NCBI GenBank assembly: GCA_002840095.1
Contig: PGZL01000007.1
Location: 252,109 to 316,108, forward strand
Direction: 5' to 3'
DNA: 64,000 bases
Source: Gammaproteobacteria bacterium HGW-Gammaproteobacteria-1
Lineage (GTDB): Bacteria > Pseudomonadota > Gammaproteobacteria > Thiohalomonadales > Thiohalomonadaceae
In this document: in pieces, positions 195 to 15,741 of the stretch
How the letters are laid out: every line of letters begins with the position of its first letter
Numbering within the stretch: position 1 is the first letter of the stretch
Made by a program: the position numbers and the translations under genes
The notes under the pieces: model-generated
Told to the model about the DNA's origin: nothing
What the model saw: the letters and a program-made list of their open reading frames with translations, nothing else
The model's database searches: none

Positions 195-815
195 TCAGTT
201 GCCCTCATGCGGCATGTCCCGATACCAGGCGTGGTCGGCCAGCGCCAGCAGTTCGCGGTCGCCGCGGCTGTCGCCATAGGCGTAGATTTCGAAATCCTCG
301 CGTGCGCCGAGCAGGGCACGCAGGCGGCGCTCCTTTTCCGCACCGTAGCAATTCTCACCGGCATAGTGTCCGGTCACCCGGCCGTCGCCGTCCAGCGCCA
401 GACACGTGGCGATGACGTCGTCGAAACCGGCGGCGTATGCCCACGGCGCCACATAGTGTTCGATGGAGGCGGAGATCACCACGCAGCGGTGTCCCTGCCG
501 GCGGTGCCACTCCAGCCGCGCCAGCGCAGCCGGGCGCACCATCCGCGGCAGATGCTCGCGGGCGTAGCGCTCACCGGCACAGCGCAGTTCCTCCTCGCCC
601 ATGCCGGCGAGAAAGCGGCGCAGCACCCTTTCCTTGGCGACGCTGTTGGGCAGCAGCCGCAAGCCGTAGCCCAGCAGGGTCGGCAGCAGGAACAACGTGC
701 CGCGCAGCAGACCGCCCCACCCCGCCAGCCGCAGCAGAAACGGCAACAGCGTGTCGCGGTAAGTGAGGGTGCCGTCGAAATCGAAGGCGGCGACGACGGG
801 GCGCTTGTCGTTCAT
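195..815 (-). CDS. HAD-IB family phosphatase
   Basis: A 206-residue soluble protein of the haloacid dehalogenase superfamily, subclass IB (the SerB-like group). The nucleophile motif DFDGT lies at residues 12-16 (Asp12 and Asp14), a Ser motif (VVISAS) is near residue 115, and the Mg-binding motif GDSRGD is near 181-186, so all three catalytic motifs are present. The ATG at 815 follows a repeat element and no strong Shine-Dalgarno is visible. It is the last gene of a minus-strand run after the DprE2-like and DprE1-like genes. Such HAD-IB domains often accompany UbiA-type prenyltransferases in polyprenyl-phosphate sugar clusters; a UbiA gene, if present, would be beyond the left edge. The substrate is unknown. 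Confidence 0.85.
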   Translation of the reverse strand: MNDKRPVVAAFDFDGTLTYRDTLLPFLLRLAGWGGLLRGTLFLLPTLLGYGLRLLPNSVAKERVLRRFLAGMGEEELRCAGERYAREHLPRMVRPAALARLEWHRRQGHRCVVISASIEHYVAPWAYAAGFDDVIATCLALDGDGRVTGHYAGENCYGAEKERRLRALLGAREDFEIYAYGDSRGDRELLALADHAWYRDMPHEGN

Positions 816-822
816 GAAACAT

Positions 823-952
823 GAGTCCGCAAATGAACGCGAATGGACGCAAATGAAACCGGATAAGCAGGCACGTCATGCAAACCCATATCCGATCTGC
901 GCGATCGAACAAATATTTTCCATTTGCGTGTATTCGCGTTCATTTGCGGACT
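823..952. repeat. Arm-spacer-arm element, 10-nt words
   Basis: The left arm, GAGTCCGC then AAATGAACGC, GAATGGACGC and AAATG, is a 10-nt direct repeat. The right arm CATTTGCG...TTCATTTGCGGACT is its reverse complement. Roughly 75 bases of spacer lie between. It fills the whole gap between the SDR stop and the HAD start. The same family occurs at 22870-22968 and 51200-51347. Confidence 0.9.
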
Positions 953-960
953 GATTCCTG

Positions 961-1701
961 TCACAGCTTCAGTCGTTTGAACAGGCGCTCGGGAATGCTC
1001 GTAATGATGAGCATGATCCAGCGCCAGAACCACGGCACGTAGATCACGTCGCGGCCGCGCTCCACGGCGGCCACGATGCGCTCGCCCACGTAGGCCGGCG
1101 TGGCCACCAGGAACAGGCCGGGCATGCCGAAGGTCATGGCGGTGTCGACGAAGCCGGGCTTGACGGTCAGCACCCGCACCCCGGCCGGGAACAGGCGGTT
1201 GCGCAGCCCCTGCAAATAAAGCGCGAGGGCGCCCTTGGCGGCACCGTAGGTGTAGTTGCTCTGGCGGCCGCGATCGCCGGCCACCGAGGCGATGCCGGCG
1301 ATGAAGCCGCGGCCGCGCTGCTCGAGGTGATCGGCGCAGAGATTGAGGATGGACACGGCGTCGACGAAATTGCGGTTGATGATGGTGAGGGTTTCCTCGA
1401 AATCGCCGGCGGCCTTCTGCTGGCTGCCGAGATAGCCGAAGGCCAGCACCACGCCTTCCAGTTCGCCCATTTCCTCGCTCACCCGTTGCAGGAATGCCGC
1501 GTGGGTATCGTGGGCATCGGCACTGAACAGGCCGAAGTTCACCTGCACACCGTAACGTATCGCAAGATCGGCGGCATCGCGCCGCAGCGATTCCACGTCG
1601 CGCCCGGCCAGGTACAGGCGATGGCCGCGCCGCGCCAGCGCCGCCGCCGTGCCGCGGGCGATGGCCGAGGTCGCACCCAGGATCAGTACCGCGCCGCTCA
1701 T
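961..1701 (-). CDS. SDR-family reductase, DprE2-like
   Basis: A 246-residue short-chain dehydrogenase/reductase. The nucleotide-binding turn is GATSAIARG at residues 9-17, a variant of TGxxxGxG. The catalytic set is Ser139, Tyr152 and Lys156 (YGAAK). It lies directly downstream of a DprE1-like FAD oxidase. That pairing is the hallmark of the two-enzyme epimerase that converts decaprenylphosphoryl-ribose to -arabinose in mycobacteria, with DprE2 reducing the 2-keto intermediate. By analogy this enzyme would reduce a polyprenyl-phosphate keto-sugar at the inner membrane face. AGGG precedes the ATG. The SDR call is firm; the substrate is inferred from context. Confidence 0.8.
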   Translation of the reverse strand: MSGAVLILGATSAIARGTAAALARRGHRLYLAGRDVESLRRDAADLAIRYGVQVNFGLFSADAHDTHAAFLQRVSEEMGELEGVVLAFGYLGSQQKAAGDFEETLTIINRNFVDAVSILNLCADHLEQRGRGFIAGIASVAGDRGRQSNYTYGAAKGALALYLQGLRNRLFPAGVRVLTVKPGFVDTAMTFGMPGLFLVATPAYVGERIVAAVERGRDVIYVPWFWRWIMLIITSIPERLFKRLKL

Positions 1702-1828
1702 CTGACGCCCTCACGTTGCACAGCCGACGCACGAAGAGCGCGGAGGTTTGTATATGACAGGAAAGCCCGCCCTACGCTACCGCTCGGCGGCGCGACGGAA
1801 CAACACTCATGGAATAAACCATTTGTGA

Positions 1829-1955
1829 TCTCGCCAAGACGCCAAGTGCGCCAAGAAAAACAAGGCCCAATATCCATGGGCTGGGTTGCCCGTCGGCCGG
1901 TACGCAGCCCGCGCTGCCGTTTCTGCCTTCTCTGCGGGCTTGGCGTCTTGGCGAG
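1829..1955. repeat. Arm-spacer-arm element, CGCCAAGA words
   Basis: The left arm TCTCGCCAAGACGCCAAG, followed by a partial copy TGCGCCAAG, matches the right arm CTTGGCGTCTTGGCGAGA. About 80 bases of spacer separate them. It lies between the SDR start and the 3' end of the FAD oxidase gene. The rest of that 271-base gap (1702-1828 and 1956-1972) shows no recognisable gene. Confidence 0.85.
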
Positions 1956-1972
1956 AGTAATGGCCATCAGTT

Positions 1973-3328
1973 TCATTCCTCCTCTCCCATACCCAGACGG
2001 CGTGACAGGCTGGAGCCGAACACGCCCTGCGGGTCCAGTTCGCGTCGCACGCGGCGCCAGGCCTCCAGCTGCGGATACATGGCGCGGAAACTGTCCGCGG
2101 CCAGCCGCGCGTCCTTGGCCAGATACACGCGCCCGCCGTGCTGCAGCACGATGGCGTCGAAGGCGTCGAGCAGGGCCAGGGTGGCCACGCCCTTCATGGG
2201 CAGGTCCATGGCCAGGGTATAGCCCTCCATGGGGAAGGACAGGTAGCCCTCACCCGCCGCCCCCATGCGCTTGAGCACGCCGAGGAAGGCCGGATGGACG
2301 CTGTCGGCCAGGCGTTGCAGCAGTTGTTGCATCGCCTCCAGTGCCGTCGCCGTCGGCACCACACACTGGTACTGCACAAAGCCGCGCTTGCCGTACAGGC
2401 GGTTCCAGTTGTCCAGGGTGTCGAGGGGATAGAAGAAAGTGTCGTAATCCACCAGGAAGGAGCCGCTGCGGCCGCCCTCGCGGCGGAAGTACTGCGCATT
2501 GAAGGCACGGATGGACAGGCCGTTGAGCAGCCAGCCCGGCATGTCGAAGGGAATGTTGCGCACCTTGGCCGGGGCCAGGCGCAGCGGCGTCAGGCGCCGG
2601 CCGCCGGACAGCTCGTCGCGCGCGGCGTGATCGCCGTTCATCACCACGCCGCGTCCCAGCCCGGCGCCGCGGCTCATCAGGTCGAGCCAGGCCACGCTGT
2701 AGCGCGCGTCGTTGTCGGTGTCCTGCAACAGGGCAAACACCTGTTCCAGGTTGGCCGCGCCCTGGTGGCGCGCGCGGATGTACACGCTCTCGATGGGCTG
2801 CAATTGCAGCTCCACCTCGCCGATGATGCCGGTCAATCCCATGCCGCCCACGGTGGCGCGGAAGGCCTCACCGTTTTCTCGCGCCGAGCAGCACAGACGG
2901 CGGCCGTCGGCGGTGATCAGTTCTAGTTCGCGCACGCTGCGCGAGAAGGCGCCGTCGTGATGATGATTCTTGCCGTGTACGTCGGCGGCCACGCAGCCGC
3001 CGAGGGACACATGCTTGGTGCCCGGCGTCACCAGGGGAAACCAGCCTCGCGGCACGGTCAGCGTCAGCAGTTCGGCCAGGGTGACCCCGGCCTCGGCGCG
3101 GATGACGCCCTGGTCGCGATCGAAGGCGAGAAAGCGGTTGACCCGCTCGGTGAGCACCACGCGGCGGTTCTCGTTGAGGGCGGCGTCGCCGTAGCTGCGG
3201 CCCTGGCCGCGCGCCAGCAACGACGGCGCCTCGGACAGCAGATCGGCGTGACGCTCCGGCCGCACCAGCTCGCAGCGCTGCACCGGGTAGCGGCCCCAGC
3301 CGGCAATTTCCTTATTCAGTGTGTTCAT
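1973..3328 (-). CDS. FAD-binding oxidase, DprE1-like
   Basis: A 451-residue FAD-dependent oxidoreductase of the PCMH/VAO fold. The FAD-binding segment GQGRSYGDAAL is at residues 41-51, and GGCVAADVHGKNHH at 110-123 matches the DprE1 flavin-binding signature, with His118 at the place of the conserved DprE1 histidine. DprE1 oxidises the 2'-hydroxyl of a polyprenylphosphoryl pentose; the downstream SDR would complete the epimerisation. I chose the ATG at 3328 because it overlaps the stop of the upstream GT39 gene as ATGA, which indicates translational coupling. A longer frame to 3406 exists but lies inside that gene. Family confidence is high; the exact sugar is not determined. Confidence 0.82.
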   Translation of the reverse strand: MNTLNKEIAGWGRYPVQRCELVRPERHADLLSEAPSLLARGQGRSYGDAALNENRRVVLTERVNRFLAFDRDQGVIRAEAGVTLAELLTLTVPRGWFPLVTPGTKHVSLGGCVAADVHGKNHHHDGAFSRSVRELELITADGRRLCCSARENGEAFRATVGGMGLTGIIGEVELQLQPIESVYIRARHQGAANLEQVFALLQDTDNDARYSVAWLDLMSRGAGLGRGVVMNGDHAARDELSGGRRLTPLRLAPAKVRNIPFDMPGWLLNGLSIRAFNAQYFRREGGRSGSFLVDYDTFFYPLDTLDNWNRLYGKRGFVQYQCVVPTATALEAMQQLLQRLADSVHPAFLGVLKRMGAAGEGYLSFPMEGYTLAMDLPMKGVATLALLDAFDAIVLQHGGRVYLAKDARLAADSFRAMYPQLEAWRRVRRELDPQGVFGSSLSRRLGMGEEE

Positions 3329-4845
3329 CCGCGTGGCAACCGTTGCACGTCTTCGTCGGGGAAATACTTGTCGTAAAAATAACACGCGCCGGCCGGCAGG
3401 AACCACGGCAGGCGGTAAAACTGTTGCTGCGTGCGCCGCAGCACCTCGTCCCGGTACAGCGTATAGCGGAAGCCGCGGCCGAGCAGCAGATAGTCGGTGA
3501 CGCCGCGCACGGTGATCTCCTGCACTTCATGACTTTCGAAATAACGCGCGTGCACCGCCGGTGACTTTGCGGCATACAGCAGCACGGCGATGTCCTTGCC
3601 GTCGAGGGCACGGTAGTCGGTCAGCATGTCGTCCTGGCGGCCGTACTTGGAGGCGTCGCCGAACACATGGAAGCGCCGGCCGGAGCGGTGCTCGAGGATG
3701 GCCGAGTAGACGTAGCTTTCGGTGGCCAGGGCGTGGCCGTCCAGCTGCGGCTCGATCTGCTGCCAGAACTCGCCGCTGTAGCGGCCGAACACCATGTCGT
3801 GGTGCAGCACCGGCCGCCCCTGCCAGGCGTCTGTGGGCAGGGCCAGCAGCACGGCAATGGCCGCCACGTGCAGCAGCGAGAACCAGGCCATGAAGCGCAC
3901 GCTGCGGCGCAGCTGCGCCGCATCGAGCACGGACGGCAGGAACAGGAACAGGAAGGGATAGAAGGCCAGCACCCAGTGCAACCCGATGCGCGCGGTAAAG
4001 GACAGCAGGGCGAACAGCGCCATGGGCAGCAGCCACAGCCACAGGAACAGGCCGCGCCCGCGCAGCGCATCGAGTACCGCCCCGCGGCGGCGCCAGGCCT
4101 GCCACAGCAGCGGCGGCGTCACCAGGTACACCAGCATCAGCAGGTACAGCGCCGGATGGGTCCAGTCGAAGCTGCTGCCGCTGTGGCGGCTGTAGACGTT
4201 GAACAGCACGTTGTCCCAGCAGTGACAGTAGTTCCACCACAGGTTGAGCGCGGCGAAGGGGAGCACAGCGAGGAACAACAGCAGCAGGCCGACGGCGTTG
4301 CGCCGGGACGGCCGCACCAGCAGCAGATAGGCGCCGTAGGCCAAGCCCAACAGTACGGCGAAATACTTGGCCAGGAAGGCCAGGCCGAGCAGCGCGCCGG
4401 AATAGGCGAACCAGCGCCAGCCGTCCCGTTGCAGCGCGCGCTGCAGGGCCAGCGCCGAGAGGAAGGACAACAGGATCAGCGGCGTGTCGGTGCTGATCAG
4501 CACGTTGATCACGTTTACCGGCGCCAGCAGGTAGAGCAGTCCGGCCAGCGCCGCGCGCTCCTCGCCCAGGCCGTCGCGCAACAGGCGGTAGATGGCCCAG
4601 GCGATGAAGCTGGTCATGGCATAGGCCGGCAGGCGCAGCCACCATTCCGCCTGGCCGAGATAGAGCAACGCGTGCAGCCACCAGCCCACCATGGGCGGAT
4701 GATCGTAATAGCCCAGGCCCGGATGCCTGCCCCAGACGAAGAAGTAGGCCTCGTCGCCGGTCAGCGGCAGCCACGCCGCCAGCAGCAGCTTGAGCAGCGT
4801 GATGCCGCCCAGGGTGAGATAAAAATTGCGGCGCAGGTCGGTCAT
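3325..4845 (-). CDS. GT39-family membrane glycosyltransferase (1)
   Basis: A 506-residue multi-spanning protein of the ArnT/PMT (GT39) type. These GT-C enzymes take a sugar from a polyprenyl-phosphate carrier and transfer it to an acceptor on the outer face of the inner membrane. The catalytic Asp-Glu pair lies in the first periplasmic loop (GDEAYFFVW, residues 30-38), followed by YYDHPPMVGW at 46-55, the usual GT39 signature. About a dozen hydrophobic segments follow and the C-terminal 150 residues are soluble. The ATG at 4845 opens MTDLRR before the first membrane helix. Its stop overlaps the DprE1-like start. Two paralogues lie at 7791 and 9325. Confidence 0.85.
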   Translation of the reverse strand: MTDLRRNFYLTLGGITLLKLLLAAWLPLTGDEAYFFVWGRHPGLGYYDHPPMVGWWLHALLYLGQAEWWLRLPAYAMTSFIAWAIYRLLRDGLGEERAALAGLLYLLAPVNVINVLISTDTPLILLSFLSALALQRALQRDGWRWFAYSGALLGLAFLAKYFAVLLGLAYGAYLLLVRPSRRNAVGLLLLFLAVLPFAALNLWWNYCHCWDNVLFNVYSRHSGSSFDWTHPALYLLMLVYLVTPPLLWQAWRRRGAVLDALRGRGLFLWLWLLPMALFALLSFTARIGLHWVLAFYPFLFLFLPSVLDAAQLRRSVRFMAWFSLLHVAAIAVLLALPTDAWQGRPVLHHDMVFGRYSGEFWQQIEPQLDGHALATESYVYSAILEHRSGRRFHVFGDASKYGRQDDMLTDYRALDGKDIAVLLYAAKSPAVHARYFESHEVQEITVRGVTDYLLLGRGFRYTLYRDEVLRRTQQQFYRLPWFLPAGACYFYDKYFPDEDVQRLPRG

Positions 4846-4858
4846 GCGCGATCTCTTG

Positions 4859-4982
4859 CCGCAGATGCACAGAGGACGCAGAGAATACCAGCCCAAATGT
4901 AAGCCAGGCCTACCCGGAGCACCCGTGGCACGTCGAATTCCAGGCGGTATACCGCATTCACTCTGCGTCTCTGCGACAGAAG
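4859..4982. repeat. Arm-spacer-arm element, CGCAGAGA words
   Basis: The left arm GCAGATGCACAGAGGACGCAGAG is a degenerate 8-nt repeat and the right arm CTCTGCGTCTCTGCG is its complement. About 90 bases of spacer lie between. It fills the gap between the GT39 start and the flippase-like gene stop. Confidence 0.8.
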
Positions 4983-4996
4983 GTTTGTTTTCATGG

Positions 4997-5926
4997 TCAC
5001 AGGTGATGCTTGCCGGTGAGGTAGGCGTAGAGACCGGGCAGGCTGCTGACGATGAGGATCACACCGTAGAGGATGGACATGGACAGCACCAGGGTCTGGT
5101 CGGCGCCGATGAGCGCGAACAGGCCGATCATGCCGCCCTCGCGCACGCCCCAGCCGGCCAGCGACACCGGCACCAGGGTGAGCAGGATCACCGGCGGCAC
5201 GATCACCATGTAGGTCCACACGCCGAACGGCAGACCGACGCTCTGGCCGATGAAGTAGATGCACAGCAGCGAAAGCAGATGGATCAGCAACGACAGCGAA
5301 AACTGCACGGCAAACGGGCGCGCGCCATGCAGCACCTGGCCCAGACAGCGGGATATGCGCAGAAATACCGTCAGCAGCGGTACCCGTTCCAACCAGCGCA
5401 ACTTGTGCAACAGGATCAACACCGCAAACCCGGCGATGCCCAGTGACACCAGGCCATTGATGGCAAGAAACACCTGATGCGGCAGCAGGTCCGGGTTGGC
5501 CTGCAAGGCCAACAGATTGAACACCAGCAGGCCGGCCAGGCCCAGGCCGCGATCGGCGGCCACGCCATAGAAGGCGTCGCGCTTGCGGTGGCCGGTACGC
5601 GCCACGTCGAGCACGCGCAAGGCGTCGCCGCCGATGCTGGTGGGCAGCCCCTGATTGAAGAAGCTGCCCTTGAAGTAGCTGCGCAGATAGAAGACGAAGT
5701 CCTGGCCGAAGCCAAGCCGCTGCATCACCAGCTTCCAGCGCCAGGAGGCCAGCAGGGTACTGGCCAGCTGGAACAGCAGGCCCAGCAGCAGCAGGCCGGG
5801 CTCCGCCCCCAGCATGGTCTGCAACACTCCATCCAGATTGATGTTGCGGAAGATGAGCCAGAACACCAGCAGCGTCACTGCCACGCGCAGCAGCAAGGTC
5901 AGGGTGCGCTTGAGATGATGGTTCAT
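4997..5926 (-). CDS. Flippase-like membrane protein (LPG synthase TM / YbhN family)
   Basis: A 309-residue integral membrane protein with about eight hydrophobic helices. It matches the lysylphosphatidylglycerol-synthase transmembrane (UPF0104) family: the segment YFKGSFFNQGLPTSIGGD (residues about 88-105) is the diagnostic loop, and ADRGLGLAGLL follows. The soluble aminoacyl-transferase domain of MprF is absent, so this is the stand-alone membrane module, which is often linked to glycolipid or polyprenyl-lipid clusters and suspected of lipid transport. Its ATG overlaps the PAP2 gene stop as ATGA, so the two are probably translated together. Its role in moving the lipid-linked sugar is an inference from context. 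Confidence 0.82.
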   Translation of the reverse strand: MNHHLKRTLTLLLRVAVTLLVFWLIFRNINLDGVLQTMLGAEPGLLLLGLLFQLASTLLASWRWKLVMQRLGFGQDFVFYLRSYFKGSFFNQGLPTSIGGDALRVLDVARTGHRKRDAFYGVAADRGLGLAGLLVFNLLALQANPDLLPHQVFLAINGLVSLGIAGFAVLILLHKLRWLERVPLLTVFLRISRCLGQVLHGARPFAVQFSLSLLIHLLSLLCIYFIGQSVGLPFGVWTYMVIVPPVILLTLVPVSLAGWGVREGGMIGLFALIGADQTLVLSMSILYGVILIVSSLPGLYAYLTGKHHL

Positions 5927-6714
5927 GCCGCCCTCCGCGGGAACAGGGTACGCAACCCCGGCAGGGCCAGCGCCAGCATCGCCAGCGGCAACACCACCAG
6001 CAGGGGACGGGCCAAGGGGTAGCCGCCGTCATAGCCCCAGATGGTAAACAGGGCCGCGACGACCAGCAGCAGGGCAAGGGTGCGCTGCACATTCAGGCGC
6101 AGCCCCAGGGGCCAGCGCCGCCCCAGCCACACGCTGAGCATCACGCCGAGCCACCCCGCCAGCGCCCCACCCACCACGTCCAGCGGCCAGTGGATGCCCA
6201 CCGCAACGCGCGACACGCCCACGGCGGCGGCCAGCAGCAGCACGGTCACCTTGGCATCGACGGGAAAACGCATCACGCAAATGGCGCCGGCAAAGGCAAA
6301 GGCGGCCGCACTATGGCCGGAGGGGAAGGCGCCGGAGACGGCCCTGAAACCGATGACACGGATGTCGTCGCCGCTCAGCAGGTAGGGCGGACGCGGCATG
6401 TCGAACACCATCTTTGCACCATGGATCAGCAGCGACACCACCACCACAGCCACCATGATGCTCCACACCAGATCGGGGCGGCGGCCGACGAAGGGCAGCA
6501 ACAGGCACAACAGGGTCATGGTGTCGCCCAGCACGGTGATGTTGGACCACACCCATGCCCCCGCCGGCCACGGCGCGCCGTTGATCAGCCGGAACAGTGC
6601 GACGTTGCCGTCGCTCGCTAATAGCAGCAACAGCAACCCGGCCAGCACGGCGGCGACGCCGTAGCCCCAACGTGGCCAGGCGTGCGGATCGGCGAAATGG
6701 GTATCAGACGGCAT
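5923..6714 (-). CDS. PAP2-family membrane phosphatase
   Basis: A 263-residue membrane protein with the three type 2 phosphatidic acid phosphatase motifs: KMVFDMPRP (KxxxxxxRP), FPSGHSAAAF (PSGH) and SRVAVGIHWPLD (SRxxxxxHxxxD). Members dephosphorylate lipid phosphates such as undecaprenyl pyrophosphate or phosphorylated polyprenyl sugars on the outer side of the inner membrane. The ATG at 6714 is preferred; an immediately upstream GTG at 6717 is possible. The gene overlaps the methyltransferase gene upstream and the flippase-like gene downstream. In the mycobacterial arabinose-donor pathway a PAP2 protein is proposed as the decaprenylphosphoryl-ribose-5-phosphate phosphatase, so this one is a candidate for the same step. 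Confidence 0.88.
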   Translation of the reverse strand: MPSDTHFADPHAWPRWGYGVAAVLAGLLLLLLASDGNVALFRLINGAPWPAGAWVWSNITVLGDTMTLLCLLLPFVGRRPDLVWSIMVAVVVVSLLIHGAKMVFDMPRPPYLLSGDDIRVIGFRAVSGAFPSGHSAAAFAFAGAICVMRFPVDAKVTVLLLAAAVGVSRVAVGIHWPLDVVGGALAGWLGVMLSVWLGRRWPLGLRLNVQRTLALLLVVAALFTIWGYDGGYPLARPLLVVLPLAMLALALPGLRTLFPRRAA

Positions 6715-7582
6715 CACGCTTGGTCAGCACCACGAGGCGATAGTTCTTGTAGCGGGCAAAAGTGGCGCCGGTGCGCAGGCCGGAGAAATATTTCTTTTTC
6801 ACCTTGGGCATGCGCTTGCGCAGGAAGAAACCCAACAGCCACGCCACGAACGGGCGGCTGCCGCGCAGGTATTCCCAAATCGCCTCGCCCGAGGGTTTGA
6901 GCTTCTGCATCAGCAGGTCATCGAGGATGTCCAGGTTGGGCGCCACCAGGGCGGTGATGTCCTCGTCACGCAGCACGTCGAAGGGTGCCGCCGCCAGGGC
7001 GGCGCGGAAATCGCTCAGGTGGTGGCCGCCGCCGATGACACCGTCGCCGGGCTGGCCGTCGCCGGCCGCCGGGGTTTTGAAGAAATCGCAGATCACCACC
7101 CGGCCGTGCGGCTTGAGCAGGCGCGCGCAATGGCCGAGCACGGTGTTGAGATCGATGTACTGGAAGCTCTCGCTGAACAGGATGGCGTCGTACTGCCCTT
7201 CCACCTCCGCCACCGGCATGCCTTCGAAGGTGGTCTCGAATACCCGTGCCTGGTTGCCGGGCAGCTCAGCCAGCCGTGCGTGCACCATGCGCGCCAGCGA
7301 TGGCGAGGGAATGACGCCGTCGACGCGGTAGCCACGCTCGGTCAGCTGCTTGAGGATGTGGCCGGTGCCGCAGCCCACGTCCAGCACGCGCACCTCGCCG
7401 TCGAGCGGCGGCAGCGCCTGGGCCAGGTGTTCGGTATAGCGCTGCTGCGCCAGCGGCAGATTGGTCAGCGACGGCACCAGGTCCGGCTCCCACAGGCCGT
7501 AGTGCAGATCCTCCACCCCCAGCAGCTGCTTGCCCAGCACCAGCCCCAGTTCGCGGCTGTCCATCTTGTGTGTCGTCGTCAT
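6704..7582 (-). CDS. Class I SAM-dependent methyltransferase
   Basis: A 292-residue soluble protein with SAM motif I VLDVGCGTGHIL at about residues 68-79, followed by a Rossmann-type methyltransferase domain and a basic C-terminal part (FFLRKRMPKVKKKYFSG) that may contact membrane or lipid. The ATG at 7582 has an AGG 7 bases upstream; the longer frame to 7657 lacks support. It overlaps the PAP2 gene start by 11 bases, so it belongs to the same minus-strand operon. A sugar or lipid intermediate of the glycan pathway is the likely substrate, but the sequence does not identify it. Confidence 0.8.
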   Translation of the reverse strand: MTTTHKMDSRELGLVLGKQLLGVEDLHYGLWEPDLVPSLTNLPLAQQRYTEHLAQALPPLDGEVRVLDVGCGTGHILKQLTERGYRVDGVIPSPSLARMVHARLAELPGNQARVFETTFEGMPVAEVEGQYDAILFSESFQYIDLNTVLGHCARLLKPHGRVVICDFFKTPAAGDGQPGDGVIGGGHHLSDFRAALAAAPFDVLRDEDITALVAPNLDILDDLLMQKLKPSGEAIWEYLRGSRPFVAWLLGFFLRKRMPKVKKKYFSGLRTGATFARYKNYRLVVLTKRDAV

Positions 7583-7699
7583 AGCTGTACCTTGTAAACA
7601 AAACAATCTGCCGCAGACGATTACATGGATGTAATCGGTTGGAAATGTCTGGAACATATTTCCCAGCCGCGGAGGCGCCGAGAAAATCGTTGGTTTTTT

Positions 7700-7763
7700 G
7701 TAGGGTGCGCACTGCGCACCGTGCCGTGCCGAACCCCGCCATGGTGCGCGGTGCGCACCCTAC
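7700..7763. repeat. Palindromic element, GTAGGGTGCGCAC arms
   Basis: GTAGGGTGCGCACTGCGCAC on the left is mirrored by GGTGCGCGGTGCGCACCCTAC on the right with about 25 bases between. Arms of this kind are common dispersed intergenic repeats in proteobacteria. The surrounding gap, 7583-7790, holds no convincing gene; a small palindrome GATTACATGGATGTAATC sits at 7618-7635. Confidence 0.8.
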
Positions 7764-7790
7764 ACGAGTATCGGTCGCGGCGACAGCGCC

Positions 7791-9239
7791 TCACCCGCGA
7801 TAGCCGGCGCAACGATAAAGGGTGTAACTCACCGCCACCGTGCCCCGCAGCACAACGCTCACCACGTCCGCCTGCGCGCACTGCTCGAAGCGCTGCTGCC
7901 AGCGCGCCGCATCGTTGCGGAACTGCCACGGCACCACCAGCACGCCGCGGGCCCCCGCCTGCGGCGTGCCGAACCAAAGGTCGTTCTGATCGTAACGTTC
8001 ATCGGCCACCTGCACCGGGCGCGGCCGTGCCGGCCAGGCGAGATGGCTGGCATAGGACCAGTTGCCGGCGAACAGCACCGGGGCCGGCCCCGGTTCCTGC
8101 GCCATGGCCTCGCGCACCTCCTCGGCCCGCTGCACCGCCTGCTCCCAGCCGTACAGATCGCCGAAGGGATACTGATTTTCGGCAAAAGGCAGCCAGGGCG
8201 CGAACAGTTCGCTGTGCAGCACCAGGGCCAGCAGCAGCGAATAGGCCGCGCCGCTCCAGGCGATGATGCGCACCGGGCGCCGCGGCCAATGCTGCAGCAG
8301 CCAGCGGGCGGTAAGCGGCGTCAGCAGCGCCCAGCCCAGCAGGGTCCAGTGCGGCAGGGTGGGCTCGAAACCGCTGCTCCAGCCGAACAGCAGCAGGGGC
8401 GGCAGGGCCAGCACCAGGACGTGGCGTTTTACCGGCTCGCGCCGGCGGCGCAGTCCGTCGATCACTGCGACGATGCCGAGCAGGTAGAGCGCCGGACCGT
8501 AGGCCAGCAGCTGCCCCGCCTGCGACAGCAGGAAGCGCGCCGGTTCCCAGGCACGGCCCGGCACGCCGTGGCCGAGCTGGTAGTCAAATGAGAGCCAGTC
8601 GTGCTGCCAGTTCCAGCCCAGCACCGGCACAATGAGCAGCAGGGCGAGACCCACCGCCAGCCAGGGCCAGGGTCGGCGCAGCTGCGCCCAGTGCCCGCCC
8701 AGGGCCAGCAGCAGCACGGCGCTCAGCGCCAGCGTCACCGCCGTGTACTTGGCCAGGCCGGCCAGGCCGAACAGCGCACCCAGCACCAGCCAGTCGCACG
8801 CCTCGCCCCGCGCCAGGGCCCGGTGCAGAAACAGTGCCGCCGCCAGCCCCAGCGGCAGCAGCGGGGAATCCGGCAGCATGGCCAGCGACAGCACCTGGAA
8901 GGCCAGGGCCGAATGCAGCAGGGCCACGGCGGCGAAGGCCGTCCAGGGCGAGGCCTCCGGATACAGCTCGCGCGTCAGGCGGAACAGCGCCAGGCTGGCC
9001 AGGGCGCCGAGCAGCACCGGCCACAGACGCAGGGCGAATTCGCCGGAAGAGAACAGCAGGACCAGGGCCTGCAACCAGCCCACCAGGGGCGGGTGATCGA
9101 AATAGCTCCAGTCGAGGTGATAACCGTACAGGGCGTAATGCGCCTCGTCGCCGGACAGCCCGGCGCCGCCGCCGGCCGCCAGCAGGTGCAGCAGGGAGCT
9201 GAACGCCACGAGCAGCAGCGCCGCCCGCCCGGGGGTCAT
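7791..9239 (-). CDS. GT39-family membrane glycosyltransferase (2)
   Basis: A 482-residue multi-spanning GT-C enzyme, paralogous to the genes at 3325 and 9325. The catalytic pair is in LSGDEAHYALYGY (residues about 28-40), followed by YFDHPPLVGW. Hydrophobic helices continue to about residue 360, after which there is a short periplasmic tail. I prefer the ATG at 9239; a TTG at 9266 would add nine residues and neither has a good Shine-Dalgarno. The donor should be a polyprenyl-phosphate sugar, as for ArnT; the acceptor is unknown. Confidence 0.83.
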   Translation of the reverse strand: MTPGRAALLLVAFSSLLHLLAAGGGAGLSGDEAHYALYGYHLDWSYFDHPPLVGWLQALVLLFSSGEFALRLWPVLLGALASLALFRLTRELYPEASPWTAFAAVALLHSALAFQVLSLAMLPDSPLLPLGLAAALFLHRALARGEACDWLVLGALFGLAGLAKYTAVTLALSAVLLLALGGHWAQLRRPWPWLAVGLALLLIVPVLGWNWQHDWLSFDYQLGHGVPGRAWEPARFLLSQAGQLLAYGPALYLLGIVAVIDGLRRRREPVKRHVLVLALPPLLLFGWSSGFEPTLPHWTLLGWALLTPLTARWLLQHWPRRPVRIIAWSGAAYSLLLALVLHSELFAPWLPFAENQYPFGDLYGWEQAVQRAEEVREAMAQEPGPAPVLFAGNWSYASHLAWPARPRPVQVADERYDQNDLWFGTPQAGARGVLVVPWQFRNDAARWQQRFEQCAQADVVSVVLRGTVAVSYTLYRCAGYRG

Positions 9240-9324
9240 CGCGGCGGATGCTGGAACAAGACTCAATGAAGACTACCCGTGGCGTCGGTAAAGGGGCGGA
9301 TTATACCCAAAGGCACAGTGGGCA

Positions 9325-10929
9325 TCACTCGGCATCCGCATCCGGCTCAGCCGCATCGGCCCCCTGCGCTGCCCCTGCCGGCTCCTCCTGCGTCACCGGC
9401 ACATAGAACACATACCAGCGCAGCGACAGGTCCGGGTTTTTCGCCTCCACCACACTGAGCTGGCGCCACTCGCCTTCCGGCAGGCTCAGCCGGCCCGGGA
9501 TGTCGTCGCGCTCGCGGTCTTCGCGGTCGTATTTCTCGATGAACAGGCACAGCCGCTCCGGTACCGCCGCCTCCCGGGCCCACAGGTGGTACTGGCTCAT
9601 GCGCGCCTGCATGGTCACACCGACGCGTTGCGGCGCGTCGAGCAGCCAGGCGACCATACCGGCGCTGGCGTGGTTGCCGACGATGATGCCGCAGTCCGCG
9701 CCGCGGGGATGGGTGGCCTCCACTTCCGGCAGCAGGCGGCGCAGCTCGGCGTCCACCTGGTCCCAGCCGTAGGCCTGGCTCAGCTGGGTGCGCTTGGGCG
9801 TCATGTCTTCCCCCGCCACCTGTTGCAGCCAGTGGGGGAAGCGCAGCAGGTTCACCAGCAGCACGCCGGTGAGCACCGCCAGCACCACCAGCCCCAACAG
9901 CAGCGGACGGGCGCGGCCACGGGCGCGCGCCGGCGGGTAGAGCCAGCGGTTGAGCGCCCCGGCGAGCAGGATGGTGCCCGGCACGTAGGCGGTCTCCGGC
10001 CAGTTGGGCCCGCTGTCGGCGGTGAGACCGGCGGCGCCGAACACCAGCAGCGGCAGCCAGAAGCCGGTGGCAAACAGGGCGCGGCCGTAGCCGCTCAGGG
10101 CGCGCGGCCCGCCGCGGCCGAAGCTGGCCCCTGCCATGGCGAGGAAGGTCCACGGCATGGCAACCGCCATCTGGCCGCCCACAAACATGAGCAGCATCGT
10201 CCAGGGATCGGCGGCGACGCTGCGCTGGACGCCGTGGCCCAGCTGGAAGGCGAAGGAGATCCAGTCGTGGCGCCAGTTCCAGGCCAGCACCGGGATGAAG
10301 GTCACCAGCGCCAGCAGGGCGCCGAACCAGGGCCAGGGGCCGGCCAGCTGGCGCCGCCCGGCGCGGGACATGAGCAGGGCGAGAAAGAGGCCGCCCAGGA
10401 TCAGCACCGCCGGGTACTTGCCCAGCAGCGCCAGCCCGGCGCAGATGCCGGTGAGGCCCCACAGCGCGGGCCGGTGTTCCTCCACCGCACGCCAGGCCAG
10501 GTAATAGGTGCACCAGGTGAAAATGATGAGGGCGCTGTCGGGGGTGACGATGTGAAAACCCGCCTGCACCAGGGGCAGCGTGGTCCACACCAGCACCGCC
10601 AGGCCGCCGGCCCGCGGCTGGCCGTAGGCGCGGCGCGCCAGGTCGTAGGCCAGCACGGCCCCCACCAGCCAGGACAGCACCGCCGGCAGGCGGATCACCG
10701 CCGCGCCGTCGCCGAACAGGTCCGTGAACGGCCGCATCAGCCAGGCCACCAGCGGCGGGTGGTCGAAGTAGCTCAGCTCCAGTCGCTGCGACCAGACCCA
10801 GTAATAGGCCTCGTCCGGCAGCAGGCCGAGACCGAGCCAGGCCAGCACGTTGCCGGCCAGGGTCAGGGCCAGCAACAGCAGCAGCCAGGGCGGGAAGGCG
10901 CGCCGTTCGCGGGAGGGTTCGAGAAACAT
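9325..10929 (-). CDS. GT39-family membrane glycosyltransferase (3)
   Basis: A 534-residue GT-C enzyme with the signature LPDEAYYWVW (residues 37-46) and YFDHPPLVAW near residue 53, followed by about eleven hydrophobic segments. The acidic C-terminus (about 20 residues rich in Ala, Asp and Glu) is unusual. The start at 10929 places MFLEPSRERR directly before the first helix; the open frame continues far upstream only because it runs antisense to the DUF3108 gene. It diverges from the DUF3108 gene, with 84 bases between the starts that must hold both promoters. This is the third GT39 copy within 8 kb. Confidence 0.84.
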   Translation of the reverse strand: MFLEPSRERRAFPPWLLLLLALTLAGNVLAWLGLGLLPDEAYYWVWSQRLELSYFDHPPLVAWLMRPFTDLFGDGAAVIRLPAVLSWLVGAVLAYDLARRAYGQPRAGGLAVLVWTTLPLVQAGFHIVTPDSALIIFTWCTYYLAWRAVEEHRPALWGLTGICAGLALLGKYPAVLILGGLFLALLMSRAGRRQLAGPWPWFGALLALVTFIPVLAWNWRHDWISFAFQLGHGVQRSVAADPWTMLLMFVGGQMAVAMPWTFLAMAGASFGRGGPRALSGYGRALFATGFWLPLLVFGAAGLTADSGPNWPETAYVPGTILLAGALNRWLYPPARARGRARPLLLGLVVLAVLTGVLLVNLLRFPHWLQQVAGEDMTPKRTQLSQAYGWDQVDAELRRLLPEVEATHPRGADCGIIVGNHASAGMVAWLLDAPQRVGVTMQARMSQYHLWAREAAVPERLCLFIEKYDREDRERDDIPGRLSLPEGEWRQLSVVEAKNPDLSLRWYVFYVPVTQEEPAGAAQGADAAEPDADAE

Positions 10930-11706: not shown

Positions 11707-11720
11707 CGGCGCCGCCAGGC

Positions 11721-12345
11721 GCCACTTGATGGGTTTCGCTGTGCTCTACCCATCCTACCTAGGGCGGGTCTTGGCGCAGAAACACCACCGACAAGATTCA
11801 CAAGATGTTCAGGATGAACAAGATTTCTCATCTTGTTCATCTTGAACAATCGTGTTCATCCTGTCAGGGAAGTTGTCTTTACAGGAACCCCAGACAAAGC
11901 ACGGACGCAGGATGGGTAGAGCAACGCGAAACCCATCGCCTTCGGGCACGCCGCTTGATGGGTTTCGCTGCGCTCTACCCATCCTACCTAGGGCGGGTCT
12001 TGGCGCAGAAACACCACCGACAAGAATCACAAGATGTTTCAGGATGAACAAGATTTCCCCATCTTGTCCATCTTGAAACATCTTGTTCATCCTGTCAGGG
12101 AGGTTGTCTTTGCAGGAACCCCAGACAAAGCACGGATGCAGGATGGGTAGAGCAACGCGAAACCCATCGCCTTTCGGGCGCGCCACTTGATGGGTTTCGC
12201 TGCGCTCTACCCATCCTACCTAGGGCGGGTCTTGGCGCAGAAACACCACCGACAAGATTCACAAGATGTTTCAGGATGAACAAGATTTCCCCATCTTGTC
12301 CATCTTGAAACATCTTGTTCATCCTGTCAGGGACGTGGTCTTTTG
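11721..12345. repeat. Tandem array of a ~230-bp composite unit (2.7 copies)
   Basis: The word GATGGGTTTCGCT recurs at 11728, 11957 and 12189, giving periods of 229 and 232 bases. Each unit holds the right arm of the GATGGGTAGAGC family, a linker (CTAGGGCGGGTCTTGGCGC), a second hairpin built from CAGGATGAACAAGAT and ATCTTGTTCATCCTG, another linker (CAGACAAAGCACGGA) and the left arm GGATGGGTAGAGCAACGCG. The third copy breaks off after the second hairpin. Differences between copies are few, so duplication looks recent. This array fills the gap 11707-12350; no gene is visible in it, and the short frames on both strands are translations of the repeat. Confidence 0.92.
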
Positions 12346-12350
12346 ACGGC

Positions 12351-13796
12351 TCACCCCCGGCGCGCGACGAAGCGGCGCCACTCCCCCACCGCCAGCACCA
12401 GCGCCGCCAGCAGCAGCGGCAGGCCCACGTACATGGCCATGGCGCCCAGTTCGCCGGTGACGTCGCTCAGCACCACGTCGCCCTGGGCCCGGGTGGCGTA
12501 GATCTCCACGCCGCGCCAGAACAATGCGCCGCCCACGCCGCCCAGCCAGGCGATCCCCAGCAGGCGGGCGGTGCTCAGGCCACGCCGTGCTGCGATGGGT
12601 GCGGCGACGATCAGCAGCACGCCCCACAGCCACCAGCCGGCTACGCGCGGCCAGGACAGTTCGGCGCCGTAGCGCAGTGTTTCCACCAGCGGGGTAAAGG
12701 CGAGGCGCAGGGTGGACGGCGGGCCGAGATAGCCCGCCACCACCGGAGTGATTGCCGCACCGTTCCGCTCGCGCAACACGCGCACCACCGCCGCGGCGCG
12801 CTCATCCGCCGTCATGCGGGCGGCGCCGGGTATGCGCAACGCGGTCCAGGTGCGGGTAAAGCCGCCCCAGCCGTGCCAGTCGGTGGACGATACCAGCACC
12901 ACCCTGCCGGTCCGCTCCAGCTCCAGCATCGCGGTGCGCACGTCGGCAGGAATGTCGGGATGACCATTGTTGGCGATCTCGAAGCCGTCGACGCCGGCGT
13001 CGGCCAGCGCGTAGATCGCCGGGGCATCGAGGCGCCAGGCCATGGAGATCACCGCGCCCTCGTGTTGGTTGCGTACCGCATCGATGAAGCGGCGGGCGTA
13101 ATCGGTGCGGTCGGCCCAGAAGTCGGGCAGCGCCGCGCCCTCGCGCAGGCCGAGACCGAGCAGGAAGCCGCCGTACTCGCTGCCCACCTCGATGCCCGGT
13201 ATCACCGCCAGGGTGGAAAACTGCCGCGCCGCCAGGGCGCGAGTGTAAAACGAGCCGGCGGGATCATCGTGTTCGGTGATGGCGGCGACGTCATACCCCC
13301 GCGCCCCATGCCAGGCGAGATTGACCGGCGCGCGCACCAGGCCGTCGTGGGAACCGAGGGTGTGGCTCTGCAGATCGGCGACGACCACATCGGGATCGTC
13401 GACAGCGAGAGCCCAGCCAGGAAAATGCACATGGGACACGAACAGCACGTAGGCGGCGAGACACCACACCGCCGCCAGCGGCGCCAGCGTCATGCGCAGG
13501 ATGCGCAGCCACCACAGGCCGCCGCGCCACCAGCCCCACGCCAAGGCGCCCAGCGCCAGCCAGGCGGCAAGGGCGCCAAAGGCGAGGCGGAAATCGGGCG
13601 CGCCGAGCAGCAGGTGCCCCGGCGCCAGCAACGGCTCGAGCAGACCCGCCGCGGCGGGATACTCCAGGCTCATGCCGGGCACCGCCGCATAGTCGCGCGC
13701 ATCGAAGGGCCCGGCCGGATCCCACGGCAGCAGGGCCGCCGCGGTCAGGACCAGCAATAGGGTCAGAATGAGAGTGCGCAGGCGCTCGGGTTTCAT
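12351..13796 (-). CDS. Membrane protein with PHP-like metal-dependent hydrolase domain
   Basis: A 481-residue protein in three parts. The N-terminus (1-125) has about four hydrophobic helices. The middle (135-360) resembles a PHP phosphoesterase: DLQSHTLGSHDG (141-152) in place of the usual HxHT/SxxSDG, TEHDDP (174-179), PGIEVG (200-205) and STDWHG further on. The C-terminus has two to three more helices. PHP domains bind two or three metals and cleave phosphoesters. The ATG at 13796 has no clear Shine-Dalgarno and follows a repeat element. A fused membrane-PHP arrangement is uncommon; it may be a membrane-lipid or polyprenyl-phosphate phosphoesterase, but the substrate is unknown. Confidence 0.75.
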   Translation of the reverse strand: MKPERLRTLILTLLLVLTAAALLPWDPAGPFDARDYAAVPGMSLEYPAAAGLLEPLLAPGHLLLGAPDFRLAFGALAAWLALGALAWGWWRGGLWWLRILRMTLAPLAAVWCLAAYVLFVSHVHFPGWALAVDDPDVVVADLQSHTLGSHDGLVRAPVNLAWHGARGYDVAAITEHDDPAGSFYTRALAARQFSTLAVIPGIEVGSEYGGFLLGLGLREGAALPDFWADRTDYARRFIDAVRNQHEGAVISMAWRLDAPAIYALADAGVDGFEIANNGHPDIPADVRTAMLELERTGRVVLVSSTDWHGWGGFTRTWTALRIPGAARMTADERAAAVVRVLRERNGAAITPVVAGYLGPPSTLRLAFTPLVETLRYGAELSWPRVAGWWLWGVLLIVAAPIAARRGLSTARLLGIAWLGGVGGALFWRGVEIYATRAQGDVVLSDVTGELGAMAMYVGLPLLLAALVLAVGEWRRFVARRG

Positions 13797-13810
13797 GGTT
13801 TGATTAGTCG

Positions 13811-13879
13811 CAAGTGACAAGTAACAAGTTCCAAGTAAAAACAAGGTTCTTTTAACTTGTCACTTGTCACTTGTATCTG
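13811..13879. repeat. Arm-spacer-arm element, 7-nt CAAGTGA words
   Basis: The left arm reads CAAGTGACAAGTAACAAG and the right arm ACTTGTCACTTGTCACTTG, with about 20 bases between. It fills the gap between the PHP protein start and the LtaS-like stop, which lies only 3 bases away. Confidence 0.87.
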
Positions 13880-13881
13880 CC

Positions 13882-15741
13882 TCACCGCGCCCACCGGTTG
13901 TCGCGCAGCAGTTCGTAGCTGAGCTGGTCGCGCGCCAGCAGTTGCCGTTCCAACTGCATGAACCCGGCCTCGGAGAGTCCTTCGCCCGCCGTCTCCAGGC
14001 GTTCGTGCAGATTGTGCTTGAGGTGGGCGCGGTCGGTGATCAGCGCGATGCTCTGGCCACCCTCGGTGACGAAGGCCTGGCCCTGCGTCTTCCTGAACAC
14101 CGACTGCCCCAGGGCGGCGAACTCGTCGGGGAAGCCGAGCAGGTCGATGATGGTCGGCATCACATCCAGCTGCGAGGACACGTTGTGATTGGTGCCGGCC
14201 GGCACGATGCCCGGCGCGTAGACCAGGAACGGTGTGTGAAACAGCTGGCGTAATCCGCCCTGCTGGAAGTGAGTCGCGTGATCGGCGGTGAAGATGAAAA
14301 TGGTGTTGGCGAACCAGGGCTGCTGCCGCGCCGCATTGATGAATTCGCCCACGCTCCAATCGGAGTAGTGCAACGCATTGATGTAACCGTTTTCGTCCAC
14401 CAGGCCGTGGGGGGTACGGATCACGTGGCCGTCCAGCTCCGGATACGGTGTGTGGGTGGTGCCGGTGAAGGCATAGGCCAGGAACGGCTTGCCCGCCTGG
14501 TCCAGCTTGCCCTTGAGGAACATCAGCATGTCGTAATCCCAGCCGAAGGTCGCCAGCGTCGGGTCGGGGTAATTCAACAGCAGCGGGATGTCTTCCTTGC
14601 CGTAAAACTCCTTGAACCCTGCCGAACGGGCCACGCCCTGGATCTTGAAGGAATCGCGGTCGGAGCTCTGCACGAACACCGTGTGGTAGCCGTGACGCTC
14701 GGCCATGGCGCCGAGGCGGGTGAAGTTGGACACGCCGATGCCGGCGTCGATGCGCGGCAGGCCCTTCAATGCCGGAATGCCGGTCAGCGTCGCCTGCACC
14801 CCCTCGATGCTGCGCTGCCCGGCGGCATAGAAGCGGCTGAACTTGAGACCGTCGCGCGCCAGCGCATCGAAATTGGGCGTGGCGCCGATGCTGCCGCCGC
14901 TGAAGCTGTCGACGTAATCGAAGTTCCAGCTCTCCAACAGCACGAACACCAGATTGTGGCCGGTGGGTTCAACATCGTAGCGCTGCAGCATCGGGTAAGC
15001 CGGGTCGATAATCGCTTGCTGCTCGCCCATGATGGCGACGGCCTGTTCCTGCGGATAAAAATGATGATCGACCGGATCGAGGTTGAGCGAGAACACCATG
15101 GTGGTAAAGACGCCGTTCAGACTCAAATGGCCGTAGGCCGAATCGCCGTTGTCGTAGGCGTCGATGATTTCGATCACCTTGCCGCCCACGCCGCCGCGGC
15201 CGACGATGGCCAGGGCCAGGAACAGCGCGACGTATTGCAGTGCCGCCCAACGCATAGTCCGCAGTTCGCCGCGCAGGACGCGTTGCCACAGCCAGCCCAA
15301 GGCCAGGGCGAACAGCGCGAACAACAGCAGGGCCCACCAGTACACGCCGAAGGCATAGTGGAGCATGAAGCCCCAGTCGTCACGCAGCAGCAGCAGTTCG
15401 TACGACACGTGACGGCGCACCTGCTCGAAATAGAACACGTCGCCCACCAGCAGCAGCACCATGCCCAGGGTCAGCGCATAGGCCAGCCATGCCAGCGGGT
15501 CGAACCAGCCGCGCCGATCGAACCAGCGCAGCGGCAGGTTCATCAGCAGGAAGGGAATGGCGAATACCCGCGCAATCACCGCGCCGTCAAAACGCAGGCC
15601 GTTGCCGAAGGCCGCCAGCACCTGACCGAAGCCGAGCTGGGCGAACTGCAGCGGATAGAGCACGTAGAGCAGCGCCCGCCCCAGGGTGAACAAACCCAGG
15701 GCAATGGCGAACAGGAGCAGGCTCTTGTGCAGGCGGGTCAT
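13882..15741 (-). CDS. LtaS-like sulfatase-family membrane transferase
   Basis: A 619-residue protein with about five N-terminal helices (1-185) and a periplasmic sulfatase-fold domain. Metal and nucleophile motifs are visible: LLESWNFDYV (Glu270), GQRSIEG (a probable Ser311 nucleophile where Gram-positive LtaS has Thr) and FTADHATHF with the second metal site. The architecture is that of lipoteichoic acid synthase and of the proteobacterial OpgB/EptA group, which move phosphoglycerol or phosphoethanolamine from phospholipid onto glycans. In this Gram-negative setting it probably decorates a periplasmic or surface glycan. It is followed closely by the PHP protein and preceded by the dCMP deaminase. 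Confidence 0.85.
   Translation of the reverse strand: MTRLHKSLLLFAIALGLFTLGRALLYVLYPLQFAQLGFGQVLAAFGNGLRFDGAVIARVFAIPFLLMNLPLRWFDRRGWFDPLAWLAYALTLGMVLLLVGDVFYFEQVRRHVSYELLLLRDDWGFMLHYAFGVYWWALLLFALFALALGWLWQRVLRGELRTMRWAALQYVALFLALAIVGRGGVGGKVIEIIDAYDNGDSAYGHLSLNGVFTTMVFSLNLDPVDHHFYPQEQAVAIMGEQQAIIDPAYPMLQRYDVEPTGHNLVFVLLESWNFDYVDSFSGGSIGATPNFDALARDGLKFSRFYAAGQRSIEGVQATLTGIPALKGLPRIDAGIGVSNFTRLGAMAERHGYHTVFVQSSDRDSFKIQGVARSAGFKEFYGKEDIPLLLNYPDPTLATFGWDYDMLMFLKGKLDQAGKPFLAYAFTGTTHTPYPELDGHVIRTPHGLVDENGYINALHYSDWSVGEFINAARQQPWFANTIFIFTADHATHFQQGGLRQLFHTPFLVYAPGIVPAGTNHNVSSQLDVMPTIIDLLGFPDEFAALGQSVFRKTQGQAFVTEGGQSIALITDRAHLKHNLHERLETAGEGLSEAGFMQLERQLLARDQLSYELLRDNRWAR

Follow-up and report, generated by a model that had tools for sequence, protein, structure and literature searches.

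A probable polyprenyl-phosphate D-arabinofuranose cassette with a candidate PF03706 flippase in a gammaproteobacterial genome

ArnT, of glycosyltransferase family GT83, carries 4-amino-4-deoxy-L-arabinose (Ara4N) from undecaprenyl phosphate to lipid A, its donor being an undecaprenyl-phosphate pentose. In mycobacteria, the decaprenylphosphoryl arabinose (DPA) pathway comprises Rv3806c, DprE1, DprE2, Rv3807c and Rv3789. Three-component pentofuranose systems, represented by open reading frames (ORF) 12-15 of Citrobacter youngae O1/O2, were described by Kelly et al. 2024 (PMC11127046); in that paper, candidate systems for glycans containing arabinofuranose (Araf) carry homologues of DprE1 and DprE2, a MATE protein is assigned as the flippase in Citrobacter, and the D-Araf pilin glycosylation of Pseudomonas aeruginosa is cited as Harvey et al. 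2011. In this study, a 64,000-nucleotide stretch of a 4.23 Mb gammaproteobacterial assembly (hereafter the window; genome G000, contig C3, positions 252109-316108, window base 1 being C3:252109) was analysed, and a minus-strand gene run at its left end was compared with these systems.

The gene run is probably a complete polyprenyl-phosphate D-Araf cassette of the three-component type, in which the donor would be synthesised, flipped and transferred to an envelope acceptor. For the donor pathway taken by itself, synthesis of lipid-carried D-arabinose by the mycobacterial route is highly likely, because all enzymes of the route are encoded in one co-directional cluster. On the basis of gene content, gene order, conservation, residues, fold matches and flippase distribution, we infer the following scheme. 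The overall route would lead from phosphoribosyl pyrophosphate (PRPP) to polyprenyl-P-D-Araf, with UbiA as the predicted phosphoribosyltransferase; a haloacid dehalogenase (HAD) protein would remove the 5'-phosphate, and the DprE1-like enzyme would oxidise and the DprE2-like enzyme reduce C2, thereby yielding polyprenyl-P-D-Araf. FlipB, a PF03706 protein resembling MprF, would move this lipid to the periplasmic face, and PMTa, an ArnT-like transferase, would pass the pentose to an envelope acceptor, for which lipopolysaccharide (LPS) is the leading candidate; this last is the weakest step. FlipA, PAP2, GT9, PMTb and PMTc would form a lineage-specific accessory segment, probably building or further decorating the same glycan.

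Coding frames were chosen by GC content at codon position 3 and by protein families, and the starts at 10929, 9239, 7582, 6714, 4845 and 3328 were fixed by inspection. The genes are as follows, all on the minus strand, with window coordinates unless C3 is given.

195-815, minus strand: HAD-IB phosphatase, candidate 5'-phosphatase of lipid-P-ribose-5-P (PF12710, 5e-40; TIGR01490 over cut-off)
961-1701, minus strand: DprE2-like short-chain dehydrogenase/reductase (SDR) (NF053786, 7.7e-51, below cut-off; PRK07102 over cut-off; PDB 21gq_C, 2.9e-28)
1973-3328, minus strand: DprE1-like flavin adenine dinucleotide (FAD) oxidase (NF053785, 1.5e-130, below cut-off; 4aut, 6.2e-88; tree)
3325-4845, minus strand: PMTa, PMT_2 glycosyltransferase of the GT-C fold, candidate pentofuranosyltransferase (PF13231, 1.7e-26; ArnT-like model)
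4997-5926, minus strand: FlipA, second PF03706 (LPG_synthase_TM) flippase-like protein (PF03706, 4.7e-33)
5923-6714, minus strand: PAP2 phosphatase (PF01569, 8.1e-21; undecaprenyl-diphosphatase models, 7e-13 to 4e-11, below cut-off)
6704-7582, minus strand: S-adenosylmethionine methyltransferase, accessory segment (PF13489, 1.6e-13)
7791-9239, minus strand: PMTb, PMT_2 GT-C glycosyltransferase (PF13231, 1.4e-28)
9325-10929, minus strand: PMTc, PMT_2 GT-C glycosyltransferase (PF13231, 1.4e-34; ArnT model, 4.6e-7, below cut-off)
C3:250935-251804, minus strand, left of the window: UbiA (NF008977 over cut-off; 8j8j, 3.3e-37)
C3:249982-250938, minus strand, left of the window: FlipB, PF03706 protein (PF03706, 5.6e-45; MprF-like model)
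C3:248653-249876, minus strand, left of the window: GT9, heptosyltransferase-like (PF01075, 8e-20)

Read from right to left, the order is PMTc, PMTb, methyltransferase, PAP2, FlipA, PMTa, DprE1, DprE2 and HAD, continued beyond the window by UbiA, FlipB, GT9 and RlmM. The original prediction had placed DprE1-, DprE2-, PAP2-, HAD-, flippase-like and GT39-type genes on one strand between 195 and 10929, and all of them are indeed encoded on the minus strand there; its right end is the start of PMTc, and the methyltransferase gene is a further member of the run. The PMT_2 protein between oxidase and flippase is encoded at 3325-4845 and not by the ORF at 3527-4870, which gave no Pfam match. Within the window, four-base overlaps join PAP2 to FlipA and the stop of PMTa to the start of DprE1. 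At locus L044 of the relative G002, PMTa/DprE1, DprE1/DprE2, DprE2/HAD and UbiA/FlipB each overlap by four bases.

Short interspersed, partly palindromic repeats occupy 816-960, 1702-1972 and C3:251805-252302, the last reaching into the window, and these repeat-bearing operon junctions correspond to overlapping genes in relatives. The 145-base stretch at 816-960 contains an inverted repeat; among the matches listed, and counting the stretch itself, the 271-base stretch at 1702-1972 has 55 genome matches and the 498-base stretch at C3:251805-252302 has 88. A 92-aa ORF (1698-1976) between DprE1 and DprE2 was rejected as a gene: its stretch contains these genome-wide repeats, and relatives such as L044 have a four-base overlap at that place. 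Upstream of the operon, 11712-12343, between PMTc and a PHP-like gene, holds three copies of a 171-base unit at a spacing of about 230 bases with inverted repeats. A protein with a weak, below-cut-off CehA/McbA metallohydrolase match (12351-13844) follows, which also occurs upstream in L045 and L046, and then a sulfatase-family protein with weak matches to LtaS and OpgB models (13882-15741).

The order PMTa-DprE1-DprE2-HAD-UbiA-FlipB recurs in 7 of the 17 relatives whose DprE1 match is strong (all four same-genus genomes, G011, G017 and G033), so the cluster is not due to chance. For a wider view, 92 loci were compared; this set excludes L020 as well as five duplicates, and was mostly found with a cassette-type DprE1 query, hence it is no random sample. 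The hidden Markov models (HMMs) used in the locus scans were built on few sequences and may miss distant relatives, and gaps were measured between stop-to-stop frames, so that negative values are not gene overlaps. DprE1, DprE2, HAD and a cassette-type UbiA, all over score thresholds, occur together in 33 of the 92 loci, and are co-directional in every one. The core is DprE1-DprE2-HAD-UbiA-FlipB, accompanied by the ArnT-like PMTa in 20/33 cassettes, and FlipA and GT9 co-occur in the same seven. Named carriers are mostly beta- and gammaproteobacterial metagenome-assembled genomes (MAGs), the labels Zixibacteria (L063) and Parachlamydiales (L083) occurring once each; that MAG records are among the loci with the full gene order counts against the reading. 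At L064 and L068, other long proteins surround HAD and UbiA, and L066 has genes similar to them; one in L064 carries tetratricopeptide (TPR) repeats over the Pfam cut-off, while the remaining scanned ones gave no family over it. Our guess is that these long L064/L068 proteins are TMTC-type GT-C transferases.

A UbiA-family phosphoribosyltransferase just left of the window had been named as a gene to look for, and it was found there. The gene starts 304 bases outside the window and encodes 289 aa, which score 288.6 bits against NF008977 (decaprenyl-phosphate phosphoribosyltransferase; cut-off 234) and match the Rv3806c structure 8j8j at E 3.3e-37. In comparison with the available text of PMC10994848, six of the seven PRPP-site residues with a stated role are kept (K28, N73, D77, Y138, K143 and K208), Gln135 being replaced by Asn, and 12 of the 16 positions printed for that comparison are identical. 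The protein is thus classed, from its sequence, as a predicted PRPP phosphoribosyltransferase of the DPA type. No phosphoribosyltransferase cut-off was passed by the genome's three remaining UbiA-family genes; one passed that for 4-hydroxybenzoate octaprenyltransferase and one that for MenA, and the third is a UbiA match below cut-off.

The oxidase gave E 1.5e-130 and 436.4 bits against the NCBIfam DprE1 model NF053785, whose equivalog cut-off of 500 was not reached here and was passed by none of the 56 genomes of the relatives search. Its nearest solved structure is the DprE1 structure 4aut (E 6.2e-88). In a FastTree phylogeny of 106 rows, for which several rows, 4aut included, drew a long-branch warning, it grouped with the remaining DprE1-like rows (93 altogether) and with 4aut, and was separated from 12 FAD oxidases of other kinds (support 99). 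The phylogenetic check suggested beforehand thus came out in favour of DprE1, and an unrelated lactone or alditol oxidase was rejected on the 4aut match and the tree. Mycobacterial numbering was anchored by setting the aligned Cys to 387; of the 29 positions checked, 22 are identical, including Tyr60, His132, Lys134, Gln334, Gln336 and Lys418, residues to which catalytic roles are assigned. By homology, tree and active-site residues, the protein is a predicted DprE1-type oxidase. The reductase scored 173.1 bits (E 7.7e-51) against NF053786 (cut-off 250); its best PDB match is the DprE2 chain 21gq_C, and homology together with the position beside DprE1 classes it as a putative DprE2-type enzyme.

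Several of these results tell against D-Araf as the sugar. Neither enzyme reaches the equivalog cut-off of its NCBIfam model, and the reductase is fitted better by PRK07102, a general SDR model (303.7 bits against a cut-off of 267). The oxidase differs at 7/29 checked positions, namely 122, 129, 228, 314 (Tyr to Phe), 321, 385 and 387 (Cys to Ala); the last, A373 in the protein, is invariant across eight cassette oxidases, and Cys387 is the benzothiazinone target. A changed specificity of DprE1 or DprE2, with the lipid carrying another pentofuranose, would fit the low model scores and the substitutions at 314 and 387, but the retention of Tyr60, His132, Lys134, Gln334, Gln336 and Lys418 speaks against it, and we regard another sugar as very improbable.

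For removal of the 5'-phosphate, the HAD protein is the candidate; its residues D12, D14, S115, K161 and D182, which lie in motifs of assigned function, are invariant in eight sequences. HAD is present in 33 of the 37 loci of the first set with a UbiA of at least 300 bits and in none of the seven class-sample loci with a high-scoring UbiA; the latter count goes against a general role, and because of this contrast HAD is regarded as part of this cassette and not of every such locus. The 33 cassettes were chosen on the presence of HAD. PAP2, which the original prediction had made a step of the pathway, was found in 4/33 cassettes, 0/59 other first-set loci and 0/26 later loci with a window-derived HMM that distant PAP2 proteins may escape. 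That proposal was not borne out, and on this rarity PAP2 was rejected as the likely 5'-phosphatase; a role in donor synthesis is unlikely, and action as a carrier-lipid phosphatase is more likely. The cassette points to the HAD protein, not PAP2, as the candidate for 5'-phosphate removal here.

At L047, L050 and L055, UbiA is preceded within one long gene by an additional N-terminal region, and L047, the one scanned, matches PRK08238 over its full length (E 1.5e-177). The window HAD and UbiA are separate genes, unlike L047, and the two HAD parts have no clear BLASTP relation (E 0.11 for the window HAD against that of the L047 fusion).

Because of synteny, fold and alternation with GtrA, FlipB is a candidate flippase, and it is likely to be the one for the lipid-linked pentose. 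FlipB follows UbiA in 31/33 cassettes, and both exceptions are at contig edges (L061 has a FlipB fragment; in L083, UbiA itself reaches the end). A profile search of PDB with FlipB gave no match up to E 1, and in a Foldseek search of PDB with its AlphaFold model (pLDDT, the predicted local distance difference test, 84), MprF structures took the first six places (E 7e-6 to 1.6e-3). Of the 92 loci, counted on the strand of DprE1, 34 have a PF03706-like protein, 16 GtrA, none both and 42 neither. Within 9 kb of DprE1 on either strand, the counts over 118 loci (the 92 plus 26 from the class sample; 117 distinct, as L169 and L093 are the same record) are 36 with PF03706 only, 26 with GtrA only, one with both and 55 with neither. 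Fisher tests, which ignore descent, gave p = 2.5e-4 for either strand and 2e-5 for the same strand (2.5e-4 and 1.1e-5 without the duplicate L169). Pfam confirmed four GtrA proteins, a GtrA domain ending a larger Duganella protein and, at L050 and L055, the assignment to PF03706. Two genes of the window genome match PF03706, both of them part of this operon, and a search of that genome for GtrA (PF04138) gave no match, the control being positive in 7/14. GtrA is absent from six of the seven relatives that carry the cassette. G001, a genome in one contig, holds a single PF03706 gene, inside the cassette, and no GtrA, and all PF03706 matches lie within the cassette region in G001, G003, G004, G011 and G017. 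In G033, three further PF03706 matches were found, one under cut-off.

Against this assignment stand the 55/118 loci with neither type (some of them cut short), the sole locus with both (L180, whose PF03706 gene is on the strand opposite DprE1), and G002, which has an unlinked GtrA in addition to an unlinked PF03706 gene. On the DprE1 tree, the alternation needs only two label changes, and the independent pairs were too few for significance. FlipB might instead move another lipid, as MprF does, while a protein encoded elsewhere, such as a MATE-family member, flips the donor. The MprF structures themselves, a glucosaminyl-phosphatidylglycerol (GlcN-PG) flippase model matched below cut-off (2.3e-12) and the MATE assignment in Citrobacter favour such a division of labour; no MATE family appeared in the Pfam scans of the cluster proteins, the scope of that search being the cluster and not the rest of the genome. 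Near-exclusion with GtrA, the constant neighbour and the close or overlapping frames argue otherwise, and this alternative is considered unlikely, leaving FlipB as the preferred flippase. The open-licence literature searched (titles and abstract starts) did not link PF03706 to this pathway.

A GT-C transferase beside the donor genes had been proposed as the consumer of the lipid, and conserved synteny and an ArnT-like fold back it. In 24 of the 25 loci having it, PMTa directly precedes DprE1 (frame gap at most 150 bp). Single-protein and profile searches of PDB gave no match up to E 1, and no NCBIfam model matched; the PMTa model (pLDDT 82) has a GT-C fold with ArnT 5ezm as best Foldseek match (6.6e-7). 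In VIA-align, PMTa aligned with ArnT 5f15 over 421 residues (Z 24.4, root-mean-square deviation 4.4, 15% identity), with the best oligosaccharyltransferases at Z of about 21, and with the mycobacterial arabinosyltransferases AftA, EmbA-EmbB, AftD and AftB at 16.7, 14.5, 14.3 and 14.0. An Emb-type consumer was rejected, as no PF04602 match was found in the genome (control positive in Corynebacterium glutamicum). The ArnT/GT83 fold is thus present, but it is common to other GT-C families and the donor is not shown by fold. Because of gene position and ArnT likeness, pentose transfer is the simplest reading for PMTa, which we consider a probable transferase. This is opposed by the similar score of Pmt4 (Z 25.1, 326 residues), which shares the fold, and by the absence of PMTa from 13/33 cassettes, three of which (L060, L061 and L072) begin close to DprE1, while the remaining ten show 4 kb or more of upstream sequence.

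The lipid A of Rhodocyclus may carry D-arabinofuranose, which the literature search did not confirm. The evidence for LPS as acceptor consists of the GT9 neighbour, the ArnT-like fold and the arabinose that PMC8954225 reports in LPS from each of its eight Rhodocyclus tenuis isolates, a short list that itself weakens the reading; the assignment is tentative, with the balance slightly on the doubtful side. The donor could otherwise serve O-glycosylation of type IV pilin, for which the P. aeruginosa pathway in PMC11127046 is a Gram-negative precedent. A heptosyltransferase-like GT9 and enzymes of PMT type are among the neighbours, and no pilin family was seen among the scanned cluster proteins, a scan that did not extend to pilin glycosyltransferases elsewhere in the genome; a pilin acceptor therefore appears improbable, and LPS is retained as the candidate.

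The pathway reading of the original prediction stands, but its surprise was overstated. DprE1 homologues (E <= 1e-60) were found in 69 of 370 genomes sampled from the class, the own genome included, of which the neighbourhoods of 26 were added to those already gathered. Scanning named genomes yielded 136 confirmed stretches and 80 retained loci, the latter from beta- and gammaproteobacteria and also from Chlamydiae, Latescibacterota, Gemmatimonadota, Thermosynechococcus, Roseovarius and others. Because DprE1 homologues are this widespread, the pathway is no oddity in a gammaproteobacterium, and PMC11127046 already describes systems of the Araf type and the pilin pathway of P. aeruginosa. What is new is the protein proposed as a possible flippase; the route is known and common. 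DprE1 homologues without detected DprE2 or UbiA nearby were seen at L048, L092 (Aquirickettsiella), L098 (Rickettsiella, cut short downstream), L170, L171 and L174, a group that includes small genomes. The Chlamydiae-labelled L083 and L085 have a DprE1-DprE2-UbiA cluster, with HAD in L083, which suggests that members of this phylum make a lipid-linked pentose.

A constant PF03706 partner that is rarely beside GtrA is a specific, testable candidate flippase family. A constant donor-plus-flippase module, separable from an exchangeable GT-C, would also aid the prediction of pentofuranose glycans in uncultured bacteria. The broader proposal, that flippases of the PF03706/MprF fold replace GtrA/Rv3789 in a large proteobacterial group and that an ArnT-like GT-C puts D-Araf on lipid A or the LPS core, is somewhat unlikely as a whole; if true, it would be a D-arabinose counterpart of the Ara4N modification.

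Compared with single known proteins, PMTa resembles ArnT in fold and differs from it in sequence. FlipB shares its best structural matches with the PF03706 flippase domain of MprF, but it has 318 aa against about 800, no synthase-domain match, 17-18% identity and UbiA as a constant neighbour. The mycobacterial DPA pathway is alike in its UbiA phosphoribosyltransferase, DprE1 and DprE2, and unlike in that HAD instead of PAP2 is the probable 5'-phosphatase here and PF03706 stands in place of GtrA/Rv3789, and in that Ala replaces DprE1 Cys387; unlike the mycobacterial arabinan system, this genome gave no match to an Emb-type arabinosyltransferase. According to PMC11127046, the P. aeruginosa system likewise makes a Gram-negative polyprenyl-P-Araf donor by orthologues of mycobacterial enzymes, with a different phosphatase and pilin as acceptor. 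Judged against the same text, the Citrobacter youngae system differs in that HAD and UbiA are separate genes here, the flippase candidate is PF03706 and not MATE, and the GT-C is PMT_2/ArnT-like, GT136 being the family of the prototype. The likeness lies in the plan, a donor synthase with a HAD phosphatase, a membrane flippase, a GT-C transferase and optional epimerases, and, as judged by family and modelled fold, a putative donor synthase, flippase and GT-C are encoded together at this locus as well.

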